This document shows positions 1,166 through 13,464 of a stretch of DNA of 64,000 bases, one piece after another. The position numbers were made by a program, and so were the translations under genes. The first letter of the stretch is position 1. Each line of letters begins with the position of its first letter. Below the pieces are notes generated by a model. It was given only the letters and a program-made list of their open reading frames with translations, had not been told where the DNA came from and did no database searches. Source of the DNA: Halorientalis salina (GTDB lineage: Archaea > Halobacteriota > Halobacteria > Halobacteriales > Haloarculaceae); the NCBI RefSeq assembly GCF_005049285.1, contig NZ_SOSC01000003.1, positions 62,001 to 126,000 on the forward strand. The letters are read 5' to 3'.

Positions 1166-2335
1166 TTACCACTGGGGAGCGCCGCTATCTTCGCCGTTCT
1201 GTACTGCGGCTTCTGCCTCCGAGATTTCCTGCTCCAGTGTTTGTGTCGTCGTGTCGATCGGTGCGAGCCCGAACTCGTACATCCGGCCAGAGCCGGTGTC
1301 CTCGTCACGGAACTCGTACATGATGTTGTCGTCGACGACGGCGTACACCTCGCGCGAGTTGTCGTGGATGACGCGTTTTTCTGAGTCGATCGCGATGTCG
1401 ACGAGATCGAGCAACGTCTCGATTGGCACACGAACGTACGACCCCGTATCGGGTATTTTCCCCCGGGAGATCCACTCCGCGTAGCGAACGCCTTCGTAGT
1501 GGTGCTGAAACGCCTCGAAATCCCCGATCTGCCGGCGGGTCAGCAAGACGGAAATCGCCCCGACGATGGCGACCACGCCGATACCGGCGTAGCCGACGGT
1601 GTTGCCTGGAACAGACAGGCCAGTCCCAGGGACGACGACAGTCGCCCCGGACACGGGAACCGTCTGGGTTACTGCCGTGGCGTGGCGCTGCTGGTCCGTC
1701 TGTGGGGTGTCGAGCTCGTATGCGCGATCCGTGATGGTGAGGGGTGTACTCGCGTTCGTGCGCCCAGTGTGGCTCCCTGTATCGTAGGTCGCGTCGACGT
1801 GGACGCGTGCCTGTACCTGTCCGACGTCACCGGTCGCGGCGTCGATTTCGGCCAGTCGCTCACGGGCAAGTCGCCAGACGTCGAGCGTGACGCTCGTCCG
1901 GGCCTCTCCCTCGGTTACCTGCTGTGTCTCCGCGGCCAGCGTCGTCTGGTTCCGCCAGAACACCGCTCCGTTCCGCGTCGCAGTCAGTTCGAGGACGACC
2001 TGCTGTGTGACGGCCGTCTCCACGCTCGGAACGTCGGTCGTCGCGATAAACGTCAGGTTCGGCGTCGCCGACGGCAGATACACCGGCATGTCGGTCAGCG
2101 TCGAGTCTGACGCGTACAGTGGCGTCTCACCGGTCACGGTAGCCTGTGTCGTGAGCGTAGTGGTGACTGTCTGTTGGTCACCCTGGACCGTCTCCTGTCG
2201 CGTGTCCGGTGGTGCTGTGACTCCAGCAGCGACACCGGCAAAGGCGACGGCACTGATGACGACCAGTACCGCAATTATCCCGCGCCCGTATCGGCCACAG
2301 ACGTACCTCACTCTCAGGATCAAGTCCGAACTCAT
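1166..2335 (-). CDS. DUF5305-type membrane protein
   Basis: A 389-residue protein with an N-terminal membrane segment (about residues 17-38), a large Thr/Ser-rich extracytoplasmic region (about 40-245), a second membrane segment (about 247-265) and an acidic cytoplasmic tail of about 120 residues. This architecture matches the archaeal DUF5305 family, which is commonly found beside S26 signal peptidases. The function is unknown. Here it lies downstream of the DUF1102/signal-peptidase genes but has a 127-base gap and its own promoter, so it is probably a separate transcript of the same regulon. A role in exporting or assembling surface proteins is inferred from context only. Confidence 0.75.
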   Translation of the reverse strand: MSSDLILRVRYVCGRYGRGIIAVLVVISAVAFAGVAAGVTAPPDTRQETVQGDQQTVTTTLTTQATVTGETPLYASDSTLTDMPVYLPSATPNLTFIATTDVPSVETAVTQQVVLELTATRNGAVFWRNQTTLAAETQQVTEGEARTSVTLDVWRLARERLAEIDAATGDVGQVQARVHVDATYDTGSHTGRTNASTPLTITDRAYELDTPQTDQQRHATAVTQTVPVSGATVVVPGTGLSVPGNTVGYAGIGVVAIVGAISVLLTRRQIGDFEAFQHHYEGVRYAEWISRGKIPDTGSYVRVPIETLLDLVDIAIDSEKRVIHDNSREVYAVVDDNIMYEFRDEDTGSGRMYEFGLAPIDTTTQTLEQEISEAEAAVQNGEDSGAPQW

Positions 2336-2370
2336 CCGATATCCGGCTCCGCAGTGATGTCTTCGGTCAT
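2332..2370 (-). CDS. Possible 12-residue leader ORF before the DUF5305 gene
   Basis: Minus-strand ATG at 2370 opens a 12-codon frame (MTEDITAEPDIG) whose TGA stop overlaps the ATG of the DUF5305 gene in an ATGA arrangement. Its ATG lies where a leaderless transcript from the promoter at 2385-2418 would be expected to begin. Translation could therefore be coupled into the downstream gene. Expression is not shown; a short open frame can occur by chance. Confidence 0.3.
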   Translation of the reverse strand: MTEDITAEPDIG

Positions 2371-2384
2371 ATCTGAGAAGTCGA

Positions 2385-2418
2385 CCGACATATCAAAAAG
2401 TGTAAGCTAACCGGTTAG
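2385..2418 (-). promoter_or_regulatory. Promoter with 12-bp palindrome for the DUF5305 gene
   Basis: On the minus strand a perfect palindrome CTAACCGGTTAG (2407-2418) runs directly into GTTAGCTTACACTTTTTGA, an A/T-rich TATA-like region. The GTTAGC element begins 41 bases before the leader ATG at 2370. The element and the following TTAyACTT are shared with the promoter at 5197-5226, so a common operator overlapping the BRE/TATA position is likely. Confidence 0.55.
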
Positions 2419-2462
2419 TTCGTGGGGGACTTACGGCCAGGTAAGCCCGAACAGAGGAGTTC

Positions 2463-3425
2463 TCAGACAGTAAACGAGACGGTCGTCTGCGACCCGTCCT
2501 GGAAGGACAGCGTCAGTTCGACACGGTCGCCGCTGGTGACCCCGTAGGGCTGCCCGTTCGAGACGAACTGATACAGCGATACCCGTGCCGTCTCGCCGGC
2601 GTCGATCGTGACGGACCGGTCGAACGGGTACATCGTCCCGGTCCCGACGTCGTAGGCGGGATCTCCCCGACTGGATTCGGCCGCGCCTTCGCTGTCCGTG
2701 GATCCGCCGGTCGCGTCGATGTATACCTCGTCTTTGCCTGGCTCGACGTTCACCGGCGGTGGTCCGTCGAACGAGAGGGCAGTCGCACTGCCAGCCTCGC
2801 GCAGTTCGAACCCTGTGATCGTCCGAGCAGTCGATTCAGTGTTTTTGACGGTTAAAGCGAGACTTCCCGTCGAACCCCCGCCCGGACCACTGAAGCTGCC
2901 GGGCGTCGCCGACCCCGGAACGAACTCGATAGGCGCGCTATCGCTGGAACAGTCGGCCGTATCCACCGTCGTCGAGCGACTGGCCGTCCCGGTGAACTGT
3001 GATCCAGCACTCGACTCGACGGTGAACGGGAGACTCGCGGGTGCCTCATCACAGGAAACAGAGACCGAAGTCGTCAGCGTCTCACCGGGCGCGAGCGTGG
3101 CTCCGGCGTTCGACAGCGAGCCTGCAGTCGTATCGAGCGACACTGCAACCGTCACTGTCCGGTCGAGCCGATTGGTGACGGTGACGAGACGACTCGACCC
3201 GCCCGCGGTCACGCTCGAAGCCACGTCGAGGCCCAGGAGGCCGTCAGCGTCGTCCGTGACACCGACCGTCGATCCCCGGTCGAACGTCGCGCTGGTGAAC
3301 GCCGCAGTCGGGCCTGCAGCGAACGGCCCGACGAGAGCAACGAGGACGAGCCCGGCGAGAAGTAATGCCTGCCAGTGTCGGCCGCTACCGTTCGTCCGGG
3401 AGCGTGAGCGACGCGTGGCCCTCAT
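2463..3425 (-). CDS. Secreted DUF1102/TasA-like protein
   Basis: A 320-residue protein. I start it at ATG 3425 because this gives a positively charged N-terminus followed by a hydrophobic signal (about residues 17-38) ending AAFTSA, and because this ATG overlaps the signal peptidase stop as ATGA. An upstream in-frame extension to 3716 only mirrors the peptidase gene. After the signal comes a block ending DGLLGLD, which recurs in the protein at 4560-5171. The rest is Ser/Thr/Gly-rich beta-type sequence with two Cys pairs. The family resembles TasA/camelysin-type fibre subunits processed by SipW peptidases. The likely role is a surface fibre subunit or its anchor. Confidence 0.7.
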   Translation of the reverse strand: MRATRRSRSRTNGSGRHWQALLLAGLVLVALVGPFAAGPTAAFTSATFDRGSTVGVTDDADGLLGLDVASSVTAGGSSRLVTVTNRLDRTVTVAVSLDTTAGSLSNAGATLAPGETLTTSVSVSCDEAPASLPFTVESSAGSQFTGTASRSTTVDTADCSSDSAPIEFVPGSATPGSFSGPGGGSTGSLALTVKNTESTARTITGFELREAGSATALSFDGPPPVNVEPGKDEVYIDATGGSTDSEGAAESSRGDPAYDVGTGTMYPFDRSVTIDAGETARVSLYQFVSNGQPYGVTSGDRVELTLSFQDGSQTTVSFTV

Positions 3426-4492
3426 CGTCGACCACCAAGGGTCCGTGTCAGCCGACGCCGCGTCCCGCGAAGCGGTGTCGTCGGATCGATCACGAGCCAG
3501 TAGACGAGGTACAGCGGCACGATACTGGCGAGCACTGTCGTCACTGCCGCAACGGCGGGGTGAACCCTGTGAAGACCGGCGATCACGTCGGCCGGCAGGA
3601 CTGCGGGATAGGGGTACATGTGGATACTCGTCGCGTGTGGTCCCGTCTGTTCCTGTGGCGGAATCTCGACGGTCACGTTCTGTCGAGACGACGTGACCGG
3701 CTGCCAGGGGAGCCACCCAGTCCGCTCGGTCGTCGATCCGTCGCCGCTTGCCGTGGCTGACGCTGGACTCGATTCGACGATTCGCATCCCGTCGGTGTCG
3801 GTGACGACGTGGGCCAGCGGTGTCGACGTCATGCTCACTGTGAGCGATTCGGTCCGCGGTTCGCCGACCGTCAGCGTCGCTGAATCTGTCGTCGCTTCGT
3901 CCGTGACGGAGTAGACCTGTGTCTGATGCACTGCTCCCAGCGAGACGACGGCGATCCCAGCGACGATGGCGAGAACAGTCACCGGGAGCACGATGTCACG
4001 ACTCCTGAGTACGGAGTCTCGGTTTCGCGCTCTGGCATCGTTTGCCGCACCGAACAGCAGGTAGCCAGCCAGGAGCGCGAGTGCTACGTACCAGTACGTC
4101 TGGACGAGCGTCAGTGCCGTCCCGAGATGTGGGATCAGGAGGGGTGACCCGTCGAGGCGCAGCACCTTTCCGGTCACCGCCGACTGCGAGACTGGCGGAT
4201 AGCCCGACACCTGGTCTGTCGAAGGGTTCGCGTCACCCTTCGTCACGATGCCGGCGTCGGTTACCGACACCGCGCGGTGCGTGACGTACGACTCGCGCTG
4301 CTCGGAGTAGAAGGTGATGATGTCGCCGGGTTCGGTCTCCCCGGCGGGGACGAGAACGTAGCCATCGTTCGTTTCGATCGTCGGCGACATGCTCTCCGAG
4401 GTCACGTAGGAAATCTGGAGCGGTGACGCGGCTGGCGCCACGAGCGCGAGGGCGAACACGATGAGGAGAGCCAGACCAGCCTTCTGTATCAT
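3422..4492 (-). CDS. SipW-like S26B signal peptidase with long C-terminal extension
   Basis: A 356-residue membrane protein. The N-terminal transmembrane helix (about 4-22) is followed by the catalytic-Ser motif SESMSP (Ser34) and THRAV with His72 in place of the bacterial Lys, plus KGDAN with a conserved Asp. This Ser-His-Asp set is the archaeal/ER type shared with Bacillus SipW. Further membrane segments occur near 112-130, 148-172 and 310-332, enclosing an extra extracytoplasmic domain of about 130 residues absent from minimal signal peptidases. It is flanked by two secreted DUF1102-type proteins and overlaps the downstream one by 4 bases, so it probably matures them specifically. Confidence 0.85.
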   Translation of the reverse strand: MIQKAGLALLIVFALALVAPAASPLQISYVTSESMSPTIETNDGYVLVPAGETEPGDIITFYSEQRESYVTHRAVSVTDAGIVTKGDANPSTDQVSGYPPVSQSAVTGKVLRLDGSPLLIPHLGTALTLVQTYWYVALALLAGYLLFGAANDARARNRDSVLRSRDIVLPVTVLAIVAGIAVVSLGAVHQTQVYSVTDEATTDSATLTVGEPRTESLTVSMTSTPLAHVVTDTDGMRIVESSPASATASGDGSTTERTGWLPWQPVTSSRQNVTVEIPPQEQTGPHATSIHMYPYPAVLPADVIAGLHRVHPAVAAVTTVLASIVPLYLVYWLVIDPTTPLRGTRRRLTRTLGGRR

Positions 4493-4559
4493 GAGTGTAT
4501 TGAAATTGGGGGATGGGAAGTCAGCGCGCGTGTCGTGGTCAGCCAGCTACGTGAGACGG

Positions 4560-5171
4560 CTACGAGCCGTCAGAGGCCGTTCCTCCCTCGTCGACGTCGT
4601 CGATCGTGAACGCGAGCGTCCCCGAGAGATCGGCAGTCGAAGTCACCGTGTCGGCGGCTCCGTGTCCGGTGTCGACCACGACGACGACGTCGTAGCTTTC
4701 AGCGGCGGCAGCGTCCATCGAGACCGTCTGTCCCTCTTCAGTGACCGTGCCCACGAGGGCACCAGTGTTGTCGTACACGCGGAACTCGAGGTTCGCGACG
4801 GCGTTGCCGTCGTCAGCGTCGAGCGTGTACGCGGCGTTAATCTGGTGGGCCTCGTCGTCGTTGTTCGCAACCGAGAACGCCTGCGACGCCCCCGGGTTCG
4901 CGGGGTCACCGAGCTCGAACAGCGCGTCGGTGTTCGCACCGAGTGCCGTCCCGTTCTCGAAGTCGATCACCAGCTGGTCAGTTCCGGCGTCCTGGTACAC
5001 CAGATTGCCCGAGTTCCCGTCCGTGAGGCCGAGTAGCCCGTTCTCGTCCGCGACGACGTCTGCGTTTGCTTGCCGTTCGACCGAAGCCGCTGTGAACGCA
5101 CTCGCACCGACCGACATCGCTGCAACGATGATGACGCCAGCCACGAGTACCGTCCTCGTCATTCGTGCCAT
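4560..5171 (-). CDS. Secreted DUF1102 protein, candidate TasA-like fibre subunit
   Basis: A 203-residue protein with a signal peptide (about residues 5-26, ending SAFTAA), then a DENGLLGL block, then a low-Lys, Asp/Ala-rich beta-sandwich-like domain. The length and the AFT[AS]A...LLGL signature match haloarchaeal DUF1102 proteins, which belong with TasA/camelysin-like secreted proteins. It is the first gene of the cassette, 67 bases upstream of the signal peptidase gene, and directly behind a strong TATA-like promoter, as expected for the most abundant product. Whether it polymerises is unknown. Confidence 0.75.
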   Translation of the reverse strand: MARMTRTVLVAGVIIVAAMSVGASAFTAASVERQANADVVADENGLLGLTDGNSGNLVYQDAGTDQLVIDFENGTALGANTDALFELGDPANPGASQAFSVANNDDEAHQINAAYTLDADDGNAVANLEFRVYDNTGALVGTVTEEGQTVSMDAAAAESYDVVVVVDTGHGAADTVTSTADLSGTLAFTIDDVDEGGTASDGS

Positions 5172-5196
5172 TACATCAGGATAAAGCCGGGAGACG

Positions 5197-5226
5197 CGTA
5201 TAAGTATAAGCTAACTGATTTGTTAG
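5197..5226 (-). promoter_or_regulatory. Promoter and inverted-repeat operator of the DUF1102/SipW cassette
   Basis: Minus strand: arms CTAAC and GTTAG separated by 6 bases (5211-5226), leading directly into GTTAGCTTATACTTATA. The TATA box lies 27-38 bases before the ATG at 5171, so the mRNA is probably nearly leaderless. GTTAGC begins 44 bases before that ATG. Further GTTAG copies lie at 5241-5249 as a direct repeat. Confidence 0.65.
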
Positions 5227-5319
5227 GGCGGTGGTTACCAGTTAGTTAGACGGCTGTCAGTCGGAGGAAGCGGTCGCGACAGGGGGTTACTGGTCGGTAA
5301 GTCGGTGGCTGAGTCGATC

Positions 5320-5338
5320 GTTAGCGATAGTATTTGAG
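5320..5338 (+). promoter_or_regulatory. Promoter of the phosphorelay operon, sharing GTTAGC
   Basis: Plus strand GTTAGCGATAGTATTTGAG: GTTAGC followed by a TATA-like TATTTGAG. GTTAGC begins 41 bases before the first ATG at 5361 and 82 bases before the receiver start at 5402. The arrangement copies the two minus-strand promoters of the neighbouring secretion cassette. Confidence 0.45.
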
Positions 5339-5360: not shown

Positions 5361-5411
5361 ATGGACCAAGACACGACAGAGAGAGGAGCAGGGACGAACA
5401 GATGGGGGTAG
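5361..5411 (+). CDS. Possible 16-residue leader ORF ahead of the phosphorelay operon
   Basis: ATG at 5361 opens 16 codons ending in TAG at 5409-5411, overlapping the receiver gene's ATG (5402) in another frame. Its ATG is 41 bases after GTTAGC, the position expected for a leaderless start. It could modulate initiation of the operon or be a chance frame. Confidence 0.2.
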   Translation: MDQDTTERGAGTNRWG

Positions 5412-5887
5412 CGAGTCCGGGGGAGAACCACGACGACGAACGGAGCGTCATGGTCGTCGCGAATGCCACAGCAGACGCCGACATCGTGTCGTGTGGGCTC
5501 GAGGATCAGTCCGTTTCGATGGTCGTCGTCCCCGACGGCCAGAAGGCGATCGAGCGGCTGTCAGCCGGGAGTGCCGATCACACTGACGAGGGAGTGCCGG
5601 ACCTGATTCTCCTGGATTTCGCGGTCGAGTCGCCCGCTGGAACGACAGTGCTGGACGCGATCAAGTCGAGTCCCCTCCTCGGGGCGGTGCCAGTCGTCGT
5701 TCTCACGGATGATGAGGATAGTGTCGCGACCGCGTACGAGCTGGGCGCAAACGCCCACGTCACGAAACCTCACGACGCGGACGAGTACGCGGCAGTCGTC
5801 GAATCCACCGCACGGTTCTGGTTCGAGTGGGCACAGTTCCCGTCGGAGCCGTTATGTACTGACAGGTCATTGTTCATGTATGACTGA
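5402..5887 (+). CDS. Stand-alone receiver-domain protein with degenerate acidic pocket
   Basis: A 161-residue single receiver (REC) domain without an output domain. The phospho-acceptor Asp72 (LILLD), the switch Thr in VVLTDD and the Lys in HVTKP are all present. The N-terminal acidic pair that binds Mg2+ (normally VEDNP) reads VANAT, so both acidic residues are missing. The overall layout, including TKPxDxDEY and a closing FWxE/A segment, matches the intact receiver at 11934-12389, which suggests a paralogous pair. An alternative start is the Met at 5450. It is the first gene of the phosphorelay operon and overlaps the next gene by 8 bases. It may work as a phosphorylation-independent adaptor. 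Confidence 0.7.
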   Translation: MGVASPGENHDDERSVMVVANATADADIVSCGLEDQSVSMVVVPDGQKAIERLSAGSADHTDEGVPDLILLDFAVESPAGTTVLDAIKSSPLLGAVPVVVLTDDEDSVATAYELGANAHVTKPHDADEYAAVVESTARFWFEWAQFPSEPLCTDRSLFMYD

Positions 5888-6773
5888 GTTCGATTCCGGG
5901 CGGTCGACGGGGACACCGGAGTCGCTGCTCGAGAGTGCGTCTCTGCTGTCGAAAAAGTGGCATCCTGCGATCGTTCGGTGTCTGGAAGACGGTGACGGCC
6001 TCGGTTTCAGCGACCTCGAGCAACGGCTCGACGGGATTTCCGCGAAGGTCCTGACAGACGCCCTCGAGGAACTACAGAAGTATGACATCATCGCCCGGAA
6101 GGAAGTGAGTCAGCGGCCGCTTCGTGTCGAATACACGCTAACCGACCGGGGTACGGACCTCGAAACGGTAATCGAGTCGCTGGCCGACTGGGGTGAGACG
6201 TACCTGGAGGACGACCAGACAGAGACGGTCGTGTTGATCGCCGACGACGACAGACGAATTTCGGCGATGCACACCACCTGGCTGGACGACGAGTACACCG
6301 TCAGAACGGCCCACGACGGGGAAGAGACCCTGCGTGAACTCGACACGGACGTGGACGTGCTCGTCCTCGACCGGCGGATGCCGGGGCTCTCGGGTGACGA
6401 GGTACTCGACTGGCTCCGGTCACAGCGGTACGATGCGCGGGTCGTGATGGTCACGTCGGAGGATCCGGACCTGGACCTCCTGGACATGGAGTTCGACGAG
6501 TATCTTACCAAACCAGTCGTGAAAGACGATCTCCGGGCCGTCGTCGCCGACCTGGTCGAACGCAGCGAGTACGACGACCAACTCCAGCAGTATCTGGCGC
6601 TCAGGTCGAAGCTAGCGGTTCTCCAGGCGGAAACCCCTATCGAGGACCTCGAATCGAGAGAGGAGTACGAACGTCTGCTGAATCGACTCGACGCACTCGA
6701 TGCGACCAGCGACGACATCGCTGACGCCGCCCCGGAGACACTGGATCGCATCTCACTACCGGAGCCCCAATGA
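5880..6773 (+). CDS. HxlR-type winged helix-REC-HalX response regulator
   Basis: A 297-residue protein. I start it at ATG 5880 because the HxlR-like domain begins there (SLLSKKWHPAIVRCL, residues about 20-35; wing RPLRVEYTLTDRG near 85). A receiver domain follows at about 115-230 with VLIADDD, VLVLDRRMPG (phospho-Asp), MVTSED and LTKP, so it is intact. The C-terminal 60 residues (EYDDQLQQYLAL...) match the haloarchaeal HalX domain. A DNA-binding domain in front of REC-HalX is unusual, since HalX normally follows REC alone. It is probably the transcriptional output of the operon and overlaps the kinase gene as ATGA. Confidence 0.85.
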   Translation: MTEFDSGRSTGTPESLLESASLLSKKWHPAIVRCLEDGDGLGFSDLEQRLDGISAKVLTDALEELQKYDIIARKEVSQRPLRVEYTLTDRGTDLETVIESLADWGETYLEDDQTETVVLIADDDRRISAMHTTWLDDEYTVRTAHDGEETLRELDTDVDVLVLDRRMPGLSGDEVLDWLRSQRYDARVVMVTSEDPDLDLLDMEFDEYLTKPVVKDDLRAVVADLVERSEYDDQLQQYLALRSKLAVLQAETPIEDLESREEYERLLNRLDALDATSDDIADAAPETLDRISLPEPQ

Positions 6774-9700
6774 GTACAGACCACACCGTCCATTCGTTAG
6801 AAGATGATTCGACTACTAGAGCGTTAAACCGGGTCGGTGAGGCAGTGTGTGCCTTCGACACCGACTGGCGGTTCACGTTCGTCAACGACGAGACCGCGGC
6901 TGCGTTAGACCGCACACCCGAGGACCTGCTCGGTGAAGATCTCTGGGAGGTCGTTCCGGAGATACGGGACGATCGTGTCGGGGAAAAGCTCCGGGAAGCC
7001 GTGGAAACACAGTCCCCTGTCCGCTTCGAGACCTACGCTGACACGGACGACCGCTGGTTCAAAGTACGGATCTACCCCTCGGAGGATGGCGTAACCGCCT
7101 GTTTCTACGACATCACCGACGAGCGTGGCGAACGACTCGACTTACAGCGGAAGCGACGACTGTTCGAGACGGTCTTCGAGGAGACGGAGGATGCATTGAT
7201 CGTCGCCGACACCGACCACCGGATCACGGATTTCAACCCGGCTGCTGAACGGCTGTTCGGCTACGACGCCAGTGACGTGATCGGGAAGCACGCCCGCATA
7301 CTCTACGCAGACCAGTCCGACTACGAACGCCAGGGCGAGCAACGGTTCAACGAGGACGCATCCGAGCGTGAGGAGACGTACGTTCTGGAGTACGAGCGCG
7401 CTGATGGCACGACGTTCGAGGGCGAAACCCTGGGCACGTCGCTCAAAGACCCAGACGGCAAAACACTCGCGTTTCTCGGGTCGATCAGGGATGTCAGTGC
7501 TCGTATCGAGTACGAGCAGGAAATCCACGATCGCAACGACGCACTCCGAACCTTTCACGAGATCGCGACCGACGACGAGCACTCGTTCGACGAACAGGTC
7601 GAGGAACTGCTCGAACTCGGAACGGAACACCTCGGACTCGACGTCGGGGTCTTGTCGGATATCGATACTGAGACGTACACCGTCGAACAGGCCATCGCCC
7701 CGGAGGGCACGGTCGAGCAGGGTGAACAGTACGAGCTCGGGGAGACGTACTGTGATCTCGTCGTCGAACGAAACGAGCTGGTTGCGATCACCGATGCCGG
7801 AGTGCACGACATTTCCAACCGCCCGGCCTACCGCGAGCAGCAACTCGACTCGTATATCGGCGTCCCGATCGTCGTCGACGGCGAGCAGTACGGAACGCTA
7901 AGTTTCTCCAGCGGAGAGCCGCGTGGGCAACCGTTCACCGACGGCGAGCGAACGTTCGTGCGCCTGCTCGCCCAGTGGGTCGGCAAAGAGCTGAGTCGCC
8001 AGCAAAACAGGGAGCGTGCGGTCGCGAACCGCAACCGTCTGCGCCAGATCATCGACATGCTTCCCCAGCTGGTGTTCTCGAAGGACAGAGACGGCGAGTT
8101 CCTGCTGGCCAACCAGGCGATTGCCAAGGCCTACGGGACGACTGTCGAAGAACTCGAAGGGGCAACCGACGCCGACTTCGCCGAATCCGAAGCGGAGGCA
8201 AAACAGTTCCGGGAGGACGACATCGCGGTAATCGACTCCGGTGAGCCCAAAGAGATACCCGAGGAGCCACTGACGACGGCCGACGGCGAAGAGCTCGTCT
8301 TCCAGACGACGAAGATTCCCTACGACCCCGTCGAGCACGAGACCGAAGCGGTGCTCGGTGTTGCGACGGACATTACCGAGTACAAGGAACGCGAGCGAGA
8401 ACTCGAACTCCAGTCGGCCGCGATGGAGGCATCGATGGACGGCATCGCCATCCTCGACGACGGCGAGTACGTCTACATGAACCAGGCCCACGCCGACGTG
8501 TTCGACTACGACCCCGAGGAGCTCCTCGGGAGCGAGTGGCGAGCAGTGTACGGCGACACCGAGATCCAGCGACTCGAACGCGAGGTGTTTCCTGAACTCG
8601 AAGCCGCCGGCGAGTGGCGTGGGGAAACACGCGGGCAGAAACGTGACGGAAGTCCCGTCCATCAGGAGATCACGCTCTCCCTGGTAGAAGATGGGAAACT
8701 CATCTGTACGAACAGGGATATCACCGAGCGCAAACGGCAGGAGGGGGAACTAGAGCGCCAGCGGATCCGTCTCCGTGCCCTGTTCGACAAGTCACCGGAC
8801 GGCGTCATCGTCCACGACGCCGAGGGGACTGTCCTCGACGCGAACGAAACCGAATGCGAGACGCTCGGCTACGACCGGGAGACACTGCTCTCGATGAACG
8901 TCGCCGACTTCGAGGTCGGAATCAGTCAGTCCGAACTCACTTCGATCTGGGATGAGATGGACGAGGGAGAGGTACTCAAAGTCGAAGGGGAGCACCGACG
9001 ACAGAACGACGAGATCTTCCCGGTCGAAGTGTGGGTCGACAAGGTGATCGTGAACGACAACGAGCGGTTCATCGCCCTCTCCCGTGATATTACGGAGCGG
9101 AAAGCCCGCGAGCAGGAACTGAAACGCAGCCGGGAGTTCATCGAACGCGCCCAAGAGAGCGCCTCCATAGGCGGCTGGGAAATTGACCTGCGGACGGAGA
9201 CACTCCGGTGGACTGACGAAGTCTATCGGATTCACGACCTGCCGATCGACGCCGACGTGAGTCTGGAAGACGGGATCGAGTTCTACCATCCGGACGATAG
9301 ACCGACGATAGAAAACGCGTTCGATCGGTTGCAGACAGAAGGTGAGTCCTACGATCTGGAACTCCGGATCGTCACCGCCGAAGATCGGGTCCGATGGGTC
9401 CGAGCGGTCGGTGACCCGCAGTTCGAAGACGGTGAGGTCGTCGGCGCGCTGGGCATCTTCCAGGACATCACGGACCGGAGGGAACGCGAACAGGAACTCC
9501 GGGAAGTCAAGGAGCGACTCGACCTGGCCGTCGAGGGGGCGAACCTCGGCATCTGGGACTGGGACATAGAGACGGACGCGGTCACGTTCAACGAACAGTG
9601 GGCCGAAATGCTCGGCCTCTCGCTCGACGAGATCGAACCCCATATCGACACCTGGGAACAGCGTGTCCACCCCGCAGACATGGACCACGTCGAGGAGAAA

Positions 9701-11941
9701 CTCGACGACCACATGAGCGGTGATGCAGCGCTGTACGATTGCGAACACCGGATGCAAACTACTTCAGGAGACTGGAAGTGGATCAAAGACGTCGGAAAGG
9801 TCGTCGAGCGCGACGCCGAGGGGACGCCGATGCGTGCCGTCGGCATCCACCTCGACATCAGCGACCGGAAGGAGTCCGAACTGCAACTAGAAGAGGAACG
9901 GGACATGTTCGCCCAGGGGCCGGCGGTCGTGTTCAAGTGGGAGAACGCCGACGGCTGGCCCGTCGAGTACGTCTCCGAGAACGTCACCGAGACGTTCGGC
10001 TACACGCCCGAACAGCTCGAGTCCGGCGCCGTACCGTATATGAACCTGATTCACGACGACGACGTCGACACGGTCCAGACCACAGTCGCAGAACAGAGCG
10101 ACGGGACGAGGGAACGGTTCAGTCACGATCCCTACCGGATCGTCACCGACACGGGCGACGTTCGGTGGGTCACGGACAACACCAAGATCATCCGGACCGA
10201 CGGCGAGGTTACCCACTATCTGGGCTATCTCATCGACATCACGGAGCAGAAACAGCTCGAAGCGTCGCTGCGCGAGAGCGAACAGTCGCTCCGGGAACTC
10301 ACCGAAATCGGGTCCGACACCGACCAGAGCTTCGCGGAGAAACTCACGGCACTCCTGGAACTCGGTACCGAGCGGCTCGATATTCCGTTCGGGTTCCTGA
10401 CCCGGATCGAACAGGGGACACAGCACGTCGTCGAAGCCGTCGGCGAGCATCCCCTGCTTCAGGCTGACCAAACGACTCCGCTGTCGGAGGCGTACTGTCG
10501 GAAGACGATCGAACAGGATGGTGTGTTCGACGTCGAGGACGCAGTTGCGAATGGTTGGGAAGACGACCCGGCATACGAGCGGTTCGATCTGGGCTGTTAC
10601 ATCGGTGCGAAAGTCGTCATCAATGGAGAGCTATACGGCACGCTCTGCTTTGCGGATCGGACCAGCCGTGACCACGAGTTCGAGCAGACGGAGCGGGCCT
10701 TCGTCGAACTGCTCGTCCAGTGGATCAGCTACGAACTCGCCAGTGAGGACTTCGAGTCGAAGCTTCAGGAACTCAACGACACCGCCCAGCAACTCATGAC
10801 GGCACCCTCGCCAACGGACATCGCCGCCATCGGAGCCGAGAGCGCGAAATCGGTACTCGATATGCCGATGACCGGGATATGGTGGTACGACGACGAGACC
10901 GAGACGCTCGTTCCGGAGCTGATGACCGACGAAGCCGCCGATCTGTTCGACCAGCAACCGACGTTCGGGACGGGCGACTCCCTCGCCTGGGACGCGTTCA
11001 CAGCCGACGAACTCCGTGTCTACGACGATCTAGATGCGGCCCCACGAATCCACAACGACGAGACACCCCTGCAGTCGGAAGCTATCGTGCCCCTCGGTGA
11101 CCACGGAGTCCTGATCTCCGGTGCAGTCGAGCAGCGAGCGTTTTCGGAGAAACGAGTGAACCTGCTGGAGGTGCTCGCGGCGACACTCGAAGCGGCACTG
11201 AACCGGGCGGAACGGGAACAGGAGTTACGCGAGACGCGACGCCAGCTCGAACAATCCAACGAGGAACTCGAACAGTTCGCCTACGCGGCCTCCCACGACC
11301 TGCAGGAACCGCTCCGGACGGTGTCGAGCTATCTCACGCTCCTCGAGCGTCGGTACGGTGACGATCTGGACGAGGACGCTCTGGAGTTCATCGACTTCGC
11401 GGTCGACGGCGCCGACCGGATGCGCGAGATGATCCAGGCACTACTCACCTACTCCCGTGTCGACACACGCGGGCAGGAGTTCGAGCCGACGCCCCTCTCG
11501 ACCATCTTCGAGGAGGTCACCCGGAACCTCGAACTGACGATCGCGGAAACGTCAGCGACCGTCGAGACGCCGGCGTCGGACACGACCGTCCTGGGAGACA
11601 GCCATCAGCTCGTACAACTGTTCCAGAACCTCGTCGAGAACGCCATCAAGTACAGTGACGGTGAGCCATACGTCGATATCTCGATCGAGCATCACGGGGA
11701 CGAACTGACAGTGCTGGTCGCCGACGACGGAATCGGGATGGAACCGGATCAGCTCGACGAGATCTTCGAGGTCTTTCAGCGACTCCATACGCGCGAGGAG
11801 TACGACGGAACAGGCATCGGCCTCGCTCTCTGTCGGAAGATCGTCGACCGACACAACGGCGAGATTCACGCCGAGTCAGAGCCCGGTGTCGGCTCGACGT
11901 TCTCGGTGACACTTCCAGTCGGTGGTGACGTCGATGCGTGA
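6770..11941 (+). CDS. Giant multi-PAS/GAF sensor histidine kinase
   Basis: A 1723-residue cytoplasmic hybrid-input kinase with no membrane segments. Approximate domain order: PAS 20-121, PAS 128-250, GAF 255-413, PAS 420-543, PAS 549-663, PAS 667-787, PAS 789-912, PAS 914-1044, PAS 1045-1171, GAF 1171-1337, GAF-like 1339-1483, HisKA with H-box AASHDLQEP (His1509), and HATPase_c about 1600-1720 with the N-box NLVENAIKYS, DDGIGM and GTGIGLALC. The PAS repeats end in the usual DIT(E/D)RK-type linkers. It should phosphorylate the receivers encoded on either side. Redox, light or small-molecule ligands are possible; none can be named from sequence. Confidence 0.93.
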   Translation: MSTDHTVHSLEDDSTTRALNRVGEAVCAFDTDWRFTFVNDETAAALDRTPEDLLGEDLWEVVPEIRDDRVGEKLREAVETQSPVRFETYADTDDRWFKVRIYPSEDGVTACFYDITDERGERLDLQRKRRLFETVFEETEDALIVADTDHRITDFNPAAERLFGYDASDVIGKHARILYADQSDYERQGEQRFNEDASEREETYVLEYERADGTTFEGETLGTSLKDPDGKTLAFLGSIRDVSARIEYEQEIHDRNDALRTFHEIATDDEHSFDEQVEELLELGTEHLGLDVGVLSDIDTETYTVEQAIAPEGTVEQGEQYELGETYCDLVVERNELVAITDAGVHDISNRPAYREQQLDSYIGVPIVVDGEQYGTLSFSSGEPRGQPFTDGERTFVRLLAQWVGKELSRQQNRERAVANRNRLRQIIDMLPQLVFSKDRDGEFLLANQAIAKAYGTTVEELEGATDADFAESEAEAKQFREDDIAVIDSGEPKEIPEEPLTTADGEELVFQTTKIPYDPVEHETEAVLGVATDITEYKERERELELQSAAMEASMDGIAILDDGEYVYMNQAHADVFDYDPEELLGSEWRAVYGDTEIQRLEREVFPELEAAGEWRGETRGQKRDGSPVHQEITLSLVEDGKLICTNRDITERKRQEGELERQRIRLRALFDKSPDGVIVHDAEGTVLDANETECETLGYDRETLLSMNVADFEVGISQSELTSIWDEMDEGEVLKVEGEHRRQNDEIFPVEVWVDKVIVNDNERFIALSRDITERKAREQELKRSREFIERAQESASIGGWEIDLRTETLRWTDEVYRIHDLPIDADVSLEDGIEFYHPDDRPTIENAFDRLQTEGESYDLELRIVTAEDRVRWVRAVGDPQFEDGEVVGALGIFQDITDRREREQELREVKERLDLAVEGANLGIWDWDIETDAVTFNEQWAEMLGLSLDEIEPHIDTWEQRVHPADMDHVEEKLDDHMSGDAALYDCEHRMQTTSGDWKWIKDVGKVVERDAEGTPMRAVGIHLDISDRKESELQLEEERDMFAQGPAVVFKWENADGWPVEYVSENVTETFGYTPEQLESGAVPYMNLIHDDDVDTVQTTVAEQSDGTRERFSHDPYRIVTDTGDVRWVTDNTKIIRTDGEVTHYLGYLIDITEQKQLEASLRESEQSLRELTEIGSDTDQSFAEKLTALLELGTERLDIPFGFLTRIEQGTQHVVEAVGEHPLLQADQTTPLSEAYCRKTIEQDGVFDVEDAVANGWEDDPAYERFDLGCYIGAKVVINGELYGTLCFADRTSRDHEFEQTERAFVELLVQWISYELASEDFESKLQELNDTAQQLMTAPSPTDIAAIGAESAKSVLDMPMTGIWWYDDETETLVPELMTDEAADLFDQQPTFGTGDSLAWDAFTADELRVYDDLDAAPRIHNDETPLQSEAIVPLGDHGVLISGAVEQRAFSEKRVNLLEVLAATLEAALNRAEREQELRETRRQLEQSNEELEQFAYAASHDLQEPLRTVSSYLTLLERRYGDDLDEDALEFIDFAVDGADRMREMIQALLTYSRVDTRGQEFEPTPLSTIFEEVTRNLELTIAETSATVETPASDTTVLGDSHQLVQLFQNLVENAIKYSDGEPYVDISIEHHGDELTVLVADDGIGMEPDQLDEIFEVFQRLHTREEYDGTGIGLALCRKIVDRHNGEIHAESEPGVGSTFSVTLPVGGDVDA

Positions 11942-12389
11942 AGAGACAGCCGGGAAGTCGATCCCCAGAGTGGTCGCCGTCGAGGACAACCCTGGCGACG
12001 TTCGACTCATCGAGGAGGGGATTTCGGCGGCCGGGATCGATCTCGAACTGGACGTGATTCAGAACGGGAGCCAGGCCATCGAGCGGTTCACCACAGCTGG
12101 GAGCGAGGACGCCAGCAGCCGGCCGGATTTACTGCTCCTGGATCTGAATTTGCCCGGAGCCTCCGGATTCGACGTTCTCGAGGTTGTCCGAACGGAGTCC
12201 TCGTTCCAGAACGTCCCCATCGTCGTCGTGTCCAGTTCCGAGAACCCAGATGATATAGAACGCATCTACGAATCGGCAGCCAACGCGTACGTCACCAAAC
12301 CAGCGGACCCGGACGAGTACATTCAGATGATCGTCGCAGCAGTCGACTTCTGGATCGCGAACGTAAACGTCTCACCCACCAATGACTAA
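11934..12389 (+). CDS. Stand-alone response regulator (Rcp1/CheY-like receiver)
   Basis: A 151-residue single receiver domain: VVAVEDNPGD acidic pocket, LLLLDLNLPG phospho-Asp, VVVSSSEN and YVTKP, all intact. ATG 11934 overlaps the kinase stop by 8 bases; a GTG at 11922 is an alternative. Such proteins typically take phosphate from the adjacent multi-PAS kinase and pass it on. The next gene overlaps by 8 bases. Confidence 0.9.
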   Translation: MREETAGKSIPRVVAVEDNPGDVRLIEEGISAAGIDLELDVIQNGSQAIERFTTAGSEDASSRPDLLLLDLNLPGASGFDVLEVVRTESSFQNVPIVVVSSSENPDDIERIYESAANAYVTKPADPDEYIQMIVAAVDFWIANVNVSPTND

Positions 12390-13464
12390 CACAGACCCAA
12401 CTCACGTCCTGCTTGTCGAGGACAACCCGAGCGACGCCCGTCTTATCGCAGAGTATTTCAAAGAGCAGACATGGCCCGAAATCGAGGAGAGCGAACCGGA
12501 GATTACGCACGTCGAGCGGTTGTCGGCCGCAGTCGATGCCTGTGACGACACTGTCGACATCGTGTTGCTCGATCTGGGATTACCGGACAGTTCCGGTCTG
12601 GAGACACTCGATACGATGGTCGAAGGTGCCAGTGCGGTCCCGGTTGTCGTGCTGACCGGCCTCGACGACGAGCGTGTCGGTATCGATGCCGTCGAACACG
12701 GTGCCCAGGATTATCTCGTCAAAGACGATATTACACCGAACCTCCTCCAGCGAACCCTCAGATATGCCATCGAGAGAGAGCGCCAGCAGCGACAGCTGTC
12801 CCAGCGGAACGAAGAACTGGCACTGCTCAACCAGATCGTCCGCCACGACATCAAAAACGACGTCGCCATCATCCTGGGATGGGGAGAGGGTCTCGAGGAC
12901 CACGTCGATCCCACGGGCGAAGAGTACCTCGAACACATTATGAGTGCAGGTAACCACATCACGGACATCGCGGAGACGGTCGGTGATTTCCTCGACGTAC
13001 TGGAGGGGAACAGCGACCCCGACCTGCGCCCGATCGATATCGAGCGAGTACTGACGAACGAGATCGAGAAAGCGCGGTCTGCTCACGATTCGGTCACCGT
13101 CAGGCTGGCAGATGAGATTCCATCCGGGCTTCGTGTGGCCGCCACGGAACTCGTGTCGTCACTCTTCCGGAATCTCCTGAACAACGCTGTCACCCACAAC
13201 GACAAGGAAACCCCGGAGATCACAGTCAGCGTCGACGTGCACGACGAGACAGTCCAGTTCCACGTTGCCGACAACGGGCCGGGTGTTCCCGACAGTCAGA
13301 AGCAGGAAGTGTTCGGCCGCGGCGAGATGGGGCTGGAAAGTCCCGGGACGGGAATCGGTCTGTACCTCGTCGACACGCTCGCGGAGATGTACGACGGGTC
13401 GGTCACGTTGTCGGATAACGACCCAGAGGGAAGTGTATTTACTGTTACACTATCCCAATGGTGA
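12382..13464 (+). CDS. REC-histidine kinase (receiver-fused sensor kinase)
   Basis: A 360-residue protein: receiver (about 6-128: LLVEDNPSD, IVLLDLGLPD, VVLTG, LVKDD), a coiled linker, a HisKA-like helix with IVRHDIKND as the phospho-His site (about 155-165), and a HATPase_c domain (LFRNLLNNAVTHN, ADNGPGV, GTGIGLYL). The receiver-first layout is common in haloarchaeal phosphorelays, where it can act as both phosphate acceptor and kinase. It is the last gene of the overlapping five-gene operon, and a 144-base gap with no further plus-strand gene follows. Confidence 0.88.
   Translation: MTNTDPTHVLLVEDNPSDARLIAEYFKEQTWPEIEESEPEITHVERLSAAVDACDDTVDIVLLDLGLPDSSGLETLDTMVEGASAVPVVVLTGLDDERVGIDAVEHGAQDYLVKDDITPNLLQRTLRYAIERERQQRQLSQRNEELALLNQIVRHDIKNDVAIILGWGEGLEDHVDPTGEEYLEHIMSAGNHITDIAETVGDFLDVLEGNSDPDLRPIDIERVLTNEIEKARSAHDSVTVRLADEIPSGLRVAATELVSSLFRNLLNNAVTHNDKETPEITVSVDVHDETVQFHVADNGPGVPDSQKQEVFGRGEMGLESPGTGIGLYLVDTLAEMYDGSVTLSDNDPEGSVFTVTLSQW

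Follow-up and report, generated by a model that had tools for sequence, protein, structure and literature searches.

The closest described relatives of the regulator considered here are the haloarchaeal HxlR-REC-HalX response regulators, an architecture listed in a census of archaeal two-component systems with no documented DNA binding or function for HalX; few archaeal response regulators have a known or predicted DNA-binding output (PMC5847659). Here we analyse a 64,000-nucleotide stretch of Halorientalis salina (contig NZ_SOSC01000003.1, positions 62,001 to 126,000; the window), in which three promoters, those of a pilin-like cassette, a DUF5305 gene and a phosphorelay operon, appear from sequence comparison very probably to share one operator for the HxlR-REC-HalX protein encoded at 5880-6773. 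This protein has the domain order of the census regulators, to which a candidate operator and targets are now added. HxlR of Bacillus subtilis and other DUF24 (MarR-like) regulators belong to the same winged helix-turn-helix family (PF01638), but Bacillus HxlR has no REC or HalX domain and takes a chemical rather than a phosphorelay input. Bacillus HxlR is an activator of hxlAB and has two tandem sites.

The predicted fold of the pilin-like protein comes closest to the archaeal donor-strand pili (the Pyrobaculum bundling pilus, the Sulfolobus thread and the Natrinema J7-2 Tafi pilus) and Bacillus TasA, and the cassette also encodes an archaeal/SipW-type signal peptidase and a protein with a weak TafC match. 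The pilin-like protein differs in being only 7-13% identical to those pilins. Our search of the openly licensed literature found no paper on this operator or regulon, and no report of linked-phosphorelay control of archaeal donor-strand pili or TasA. The operator, its assignment to the HxlR-REC-HalX class and its link to a filament cassette appear new, the parts being of known kinds.

A tandem inverted-repeat operator at three promoters

The first-pass annotation had singled out the hexamer GTTAGC before three ATG codons. Its positions are correct (2411 to 2406 and 5215 to 5210 on the minus strand, 5320 to 5325 on the plus strand), as are its distances of 41 (ATG 2370), 44 (ATG 5171) and 41 (ATG 5361) bases; GTTAGCTTAyACTT is common to the two minus-strand sites, as was read. 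Comparison of upstream regions across orthologous loci shows GTTAGC to be the final quarter of an element of 39 bp, TNAC-N6-GTAA-N9-TNAC-N6-GTTAGC, with an N10 instead of the N9 spacer at a few loci. The three copies are the promoter-proximal half-site of an operator made of two tandem inverted repeats, the half-sites being spaced 10 bp and the repeats 23 bp, which adjoins the TATA box about 41 bases upstream of the first ATG:

5210..5248, minus strand: O1, operator of the pilin-like cassette; TAAC-N6-GTAA (5248-5235), N9, TAAC-N6-GTTAGC (5225-5210); 16/16 core positions, 25.2 bits
2406..2444, minus strand: O2, operator of DUF5305; TTAC-N6-GTAA (2444-2431), N9, GAAC-N6-GTTAGC (2421-2406); 15/16, 28.4 bits
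5287..5325, plus strand: O3, operator of the phosphorelay operon; TTAC-N6-GTAA (5287-5300), N9, TGAG-N6-GTTAGC (5310-5325); 15/16, 21.4 bits
5198..5203, minus strand: probable TATA box of the cassette promoter, TTATAC, at a conserved +12 to +15 from the G of GTTAGC
2395..2399, minus strand: probable TATA-box region of the DUF5305 promoter, TTTTT, at the same offset
5331..5335, plus strand: probable TATA-box region of the phosphorelay promoter, TATTT, at the same offset

Tandem TNAC-N6-GTNA repeats with an N9-10 spacer before the core promoter, the feature by which we recognise members of the regulon, were found. In 960 kb of sequence simulated from the window with a first-order Markov model, the best core score did not exceed 12/16. 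Both inverted repeats of the first-pass annotation are present as described, but the one at O2, CTAACCGGTTAG, overlaps the operator by coincidence and lies out of its register; we replaced it with the register common to all orthologues, GAAC-N6-GTTA with TTAC-N6-GTAA 23 bp upstream.

The element is restricted to these three promoters. GTTAGC by itself was rejected as a motif, since it occurs at chance level (7 copies in the window against 9.4 expected). A sequence-only profile of 41 bp, built from 18 sites, gave exactly three matches at E<=10 in the 3.66-Mb genome, all at this locus. The simpler pattern CTAACN{0,10}GTTAG is confined to two places in the genome, both again at this locus, whereas its reversed control pattern occurs 22 times per strand.

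Orthologues of the HxlR-REC-HalX protein were drawn from Halorubrum, Halorientalis, Halonotius, Halohasta and two uncultured haloarchaea. Where sufficient DNA was available, their loci share the gene order of the phosphorelay and have a complete or partial cassette close by. Alignment of the upstream regions, a check that could have told against a shared element, showed it to be retained in several genera with position, geometry and spacing all kept and flanks unrelated. Mean pairwise identity of the operator-aligned promoters is 0.85-0.93 in the core, 0.40-0.52 in the spacers and 0.24-0.27 in the upstream flank, the last being equal to random. The G of GTTAGC stands 41 bases before the first ATG in 9 of 11 DUF5305 promoters (40 and 45 in the other two); the distance is 43-44 bases for the pilin gene and 40-48 for the regulator operon.

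Probable assignment of the operator to the HxlR-REC-HalX protein

The phosphorelay operon downstream of O3 comprises:

5402..5887, plus strand: REC-only response regulator (PF00072)
5880..6773, plus strand: HxlR-REC-HalX response regulator, proposed to bind the operator on the basis of co-occurrence (PF01638, PF00072, PF08663)
6770..11941, plus strand: multi-PAS/GAF histidine kinase (domain search)
11922..12389, plus strand: REC protein of the phosphorelay (domain search)
12382..13464, plus strand: REC-histidine kinase of the phosphorelay (domain search)

In the 5880-6773 protein, PF01638 (residues 22-111), PF00072 (118-222) and PF08663 (227-287) all score over curated cut-offs, and the REC domain keeps its phospho-acceptor site (LVLDRRMPG, the acidic IADDD and the lysine of YLTKP).

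Comparison across genomes establishes that the operator co-occurs with this class of protein. Among 391 genomes of the class scanned with the profile, matches at E<=1e-3 were found in 7, all belonging to the 8 that encode an HxlR-REC-HalX protein of >=60% identity (Fisher 3e-14); the 383 genomes that do not encode one gave no match at that threshold. Loci in G352, G209 and G278 and the second locus of G153 (contig 18), which supplied no sites to the profile, agree with it. Weak single matches (E 0.002-0.05) in 14 genomes lacking an HxlR match at E<=1e-55 were discarded as the expected noise (391 x 0.05). Within the genus, strong matches were obtained in only one of seven other Halorientalis species, the one with a 65% identical regulator, and one further species gave weak matches only (E 0.8 or worse).

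The element also separates from the cassette. No operator was found at 11 cassettes without HxlR-REC-HalX within about 10 kb (L132, L134-L143), and on plasmid pHsi540 of Haloarcula sinaiiensis the whole phosphorelay, with no cassette within about 10 kb, has a 14/16 operator at its own operon. The element therefore accompanies the regulator gene and not the cassette, which supports the earlier suggestion that this one protein governs all three promoters. Two further genomes, G020 and G082, were at first counted as having regulator-less cassettes and were regrouped, since both have an HxlR protein of 38% identity close by and an in-register site that has diverged. Their regulators have an altered recognition helix, SNKVL[SA]ND in place of the SAKVLTDAL that is invariant at GTTAGC loci, and the half-site at the adjoining cassettes is GGTTAC; this parallel change, seen at two loci, is suggestive only.

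Several observations weigh against this assignment. Five of the seven strong-match genomes supplied sites to the profile, so that its sensitivity is not an independent measure, although its specificity is. The HxlR-linked cassettes are also the mutually more similar ones, and the association may partly reflect shared descent. The fit is poor at some sites: the Haloarcula operator scores only 13.9 bits, L036 reaches only 11/16 at its regulator operon, and in G278 the site before the regulator, 14/16 with N10, is followed by no ATG within the first 140 bases.

We infer that the regulator binds as two dimers, one per inverted repeat TNAC-N6-GTNA, whose half-sites lie about one helical turn apart. 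Bacillus HxlR is a dimer on DNA with its recognition helices 34.8 Å apart (PMC7835342), which fits this spacing. The proximal half-site GTTAGC would end where the region of the transcription factor B recognition element (BRE) and TATA box starts. Phosphate would reach the REC domain of the regulator from the PAS/GAF kinase and REC proteins of the same operon, and the regulator would then control the pilin-like cassette through O1, DUF5305 through O2 and its own operon through O3.

As to the sign of control, we lean modestly towards activation, in which the regulator would help the TATA-binding protein (TBP) and transcription factor B (TFB) to load. Both dimer sites lie entirely upstream of the TATA box and start, the usual position of an activator, and Bacillus HxlR activates hxlAB and has been used as an inducible activator (PMC7835342). 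The opposite sign is a possible, if less favoured, outcome: with GTTAGC directly before the TATA region, a regulator bound as proposed could abut or overlap the BRE and block TFB and TBP, phosphorylation relieving or causing the block, and negative autoregulation is common.

It is unlikely that the HxlR-REC-HalX protein is a mere neighbour and that another regulator, such as a stand-alone HxlR-domain protein encoded elsewhere, binds the operators. H. salina does encode one that is 51% identical over residues 18-110, with a related recognition region, and other Halorientalis species also encode such proteins. However, they occur in congeners without the operator too, which makes them the weaker candidates. 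The operator instead tracks HxlR-REC-HalX through different genera and cassette settings, and one copy belongs to the linked phosphorelay operon itself. Still less credible is a basal role for GTTAGC as a BRE variant of strong promoters: it does occupy the BRE position in all three promoters, but the published haloarchaeal BRE is CGAAA (PMC4983044), and the full 39-bp element is found at only three places in the genome and extends upstream beyond any BRE by two helical turns. Coincidence, or recent copying of a DNA segment, which the proximity of the three loci and the chance frequency of the bare hexamer might suggest, has next to no likelihood, being already refuted by the cross-genus conservation; the confinement of similarity to spaced core positions rather than spacers and flanks and the simulated scores also speak against it.

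The HxlR-REC-HalX family becomes directly testable, since the operator geometry is exact, targets are proposed and one relative is in culture, Haloarcula sinaiiensis ATCC 33800, whose counterpart of the 5880-6773 protein is WP_004966632.1.

Mini-ORFs at two of the promoters

Of the three ATG codons, ATG 5171 is the start of the pilin-like gene. ATG 2370 and ATG 5361 do not begin DUF5305 and the response regulator but open short open reading frames (mini-ORFs):

2332..2370, minus strand: 12-codon mini-ORF, its TGA overlapping the DUF5305 start at 2335 (ATGA)
5361..5411, plus strand: 16-codon mini-ORF overlapping the REC start at 5402
L033, L034, L035, L036, L038, L039, L040, L123, L125, L126 and L130: orthologues, all sharing one frame relative to the main start, with the peptide not conserved

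At eight DUF5305 loci (the window, L033, L034, L039, L040, L126, L130 and L123) the ATG at +40/+41 opens an ORF of 11-12 codons whose stop overlaps the real start, a GTG in L123; at three others the ATG downstream of the operator is the DUF5305 start itself. Each of the nine regulator operons examined carries an ORF of 10-16 codons that terminates at the REC start or just within it. There the distances from mini-ATG to main start (32, 35, 41, 44, 47) are all 2 modulo 3. By chance, a stop would fall exactly at the main start in about 6% of cases; the loci share ancestry and are not independent, and the frame is nonetheless kept despite the changes in length. At the level of sequence, this conservation suggests translation of the mini-ORFs followed by reinitiation, that is, translational coupling.

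The predicted transcription start lies about 41 bases after the G of GTTAGC, which would give the pilin gene a nearly leaderless message. Translation would arrive at DUF5305 and REC by way of a short leaderless mini-ORF ending at the start codon. In Haloferax, 72% of protein-coding transcripts are leaderless, and coupling of genes with overlapping stop and start codons has been described (PMC4983044, PMC12548453). By comparison with that termination-reinitiation, the upstream ORF here has only 10-16 codons, its peptide is not conserved and it is found at two promoters within a single regulon. The mini-ORFs offer a compact test case for initiation at non-leaderless haloarchaeal genes.

The pilin-like cassette and further candidate targets

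The genes downstream of O1 and O2 are:

4560..5171, minus strand: pilin-like protein with a predicted TasA/AbpA/thread fold (structure model and fold comparison)
3422..4492, minus strand: signal peptidase I, archaeal/SipW type (TIGR02228, 58.9 bits against a cut-off of 51.85)
2463..3425, minus strand: TafC-like secreted protein (NF052521, 40 bits, E 2e-10, far under the curated cut-off of 410)
1166..2335, minus strand: DUF5305 protein (PF17231)

Pfam gave no match for the pilin-like protein or the signal peptidase, and a PDB sequence search with the pilin alignment gave no useful match. We modelled the 4560-5171 product from 22 homologues (pLDDT, the predicted local confidence, 72). Its best structural matches are Pyrobaculum 7ueg (Z 8.8, 7% identity), the Sulfolobus thread 7pnb (Z 7.7) and Natrinema Tafi 9p0a (Z 6.4); only the first rises above the range of chance arrangements, the other relatives being below Z 8. 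A donor-strand pilin fold is probable from this model, and the TIGR02228 peptidase and weak TafC match fit the reading of the cassette as a donor-strand pilus system. The proposed regulon predicts phosphorelay control of an archaeal TasA-like surface filament.

More distant HxlR-REC-HalX proteins accompany the same element at other secreted-protein genes, in further support of control by one regulator. In genomes with 45-49% identical regulators (G006, G281, G339, G381), it precedes secreted right-handed beta-helix genes, and G198 and G229 have further candidate sites of this type. This beta-helix protein is encoded in 6 of the 391 genomes, 5 of them within the HxlR set. Among its eight genes, a 12/12 half-site match lies close upstream in four and at -278 in one, and an 11/12 site is present in one (G390, where no full regulator was found; the genome is 81% complete). 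The tandem operators lie before:

L164, 7320-8743: secreted beta-helix gene
L160, 3990: secreted beta-helix gene
L163, 6125: secreted beta-helix gene
L128, 10427-11821: secreted beta-helix gene
L133, 9574: secreted beta-helix gene

These genes are a candidate second regulon of the family. We put at even chances the broader proposal that HxlR-REC-HalX proteins are a general class of haloarchaeal DNA-binding regulators that acts through one tandem-palindrome operator to control extracellular structures (donor-strand pili and secreted beta-helix proteins in separate branches), with a second, translational layer of conserved leaderless mini-ORFs delivering ribosomes to DUF5305 and the regulator operon.

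Some loci have further features of their own. In G278 (L129, 3720-5158) an operator lies ahead of the gene for a protein that combines a Tat-like signal with an SdrD_B domain, its ATG exactly at +41, a candidate regulon member outside the cluster. Halohasta salina (G153) has two copies of the cassette and HxlR phosphorelay (L040, L126), with operators at both. The operator at L035 9330-9370 scores nearly equally on both strands (25.1 and 25.9 bits) and may serve divergent promoters. Extra sensory genes lie between cassette and phosphorelay in Halohasta (L040, 5062-9317), encoding a transducer-like protein and a GAF/PAS kinase, and a GAF/PAS-like kinase similar to the latter occupies the same interval in Halorubrum (L033, 7260-9260).

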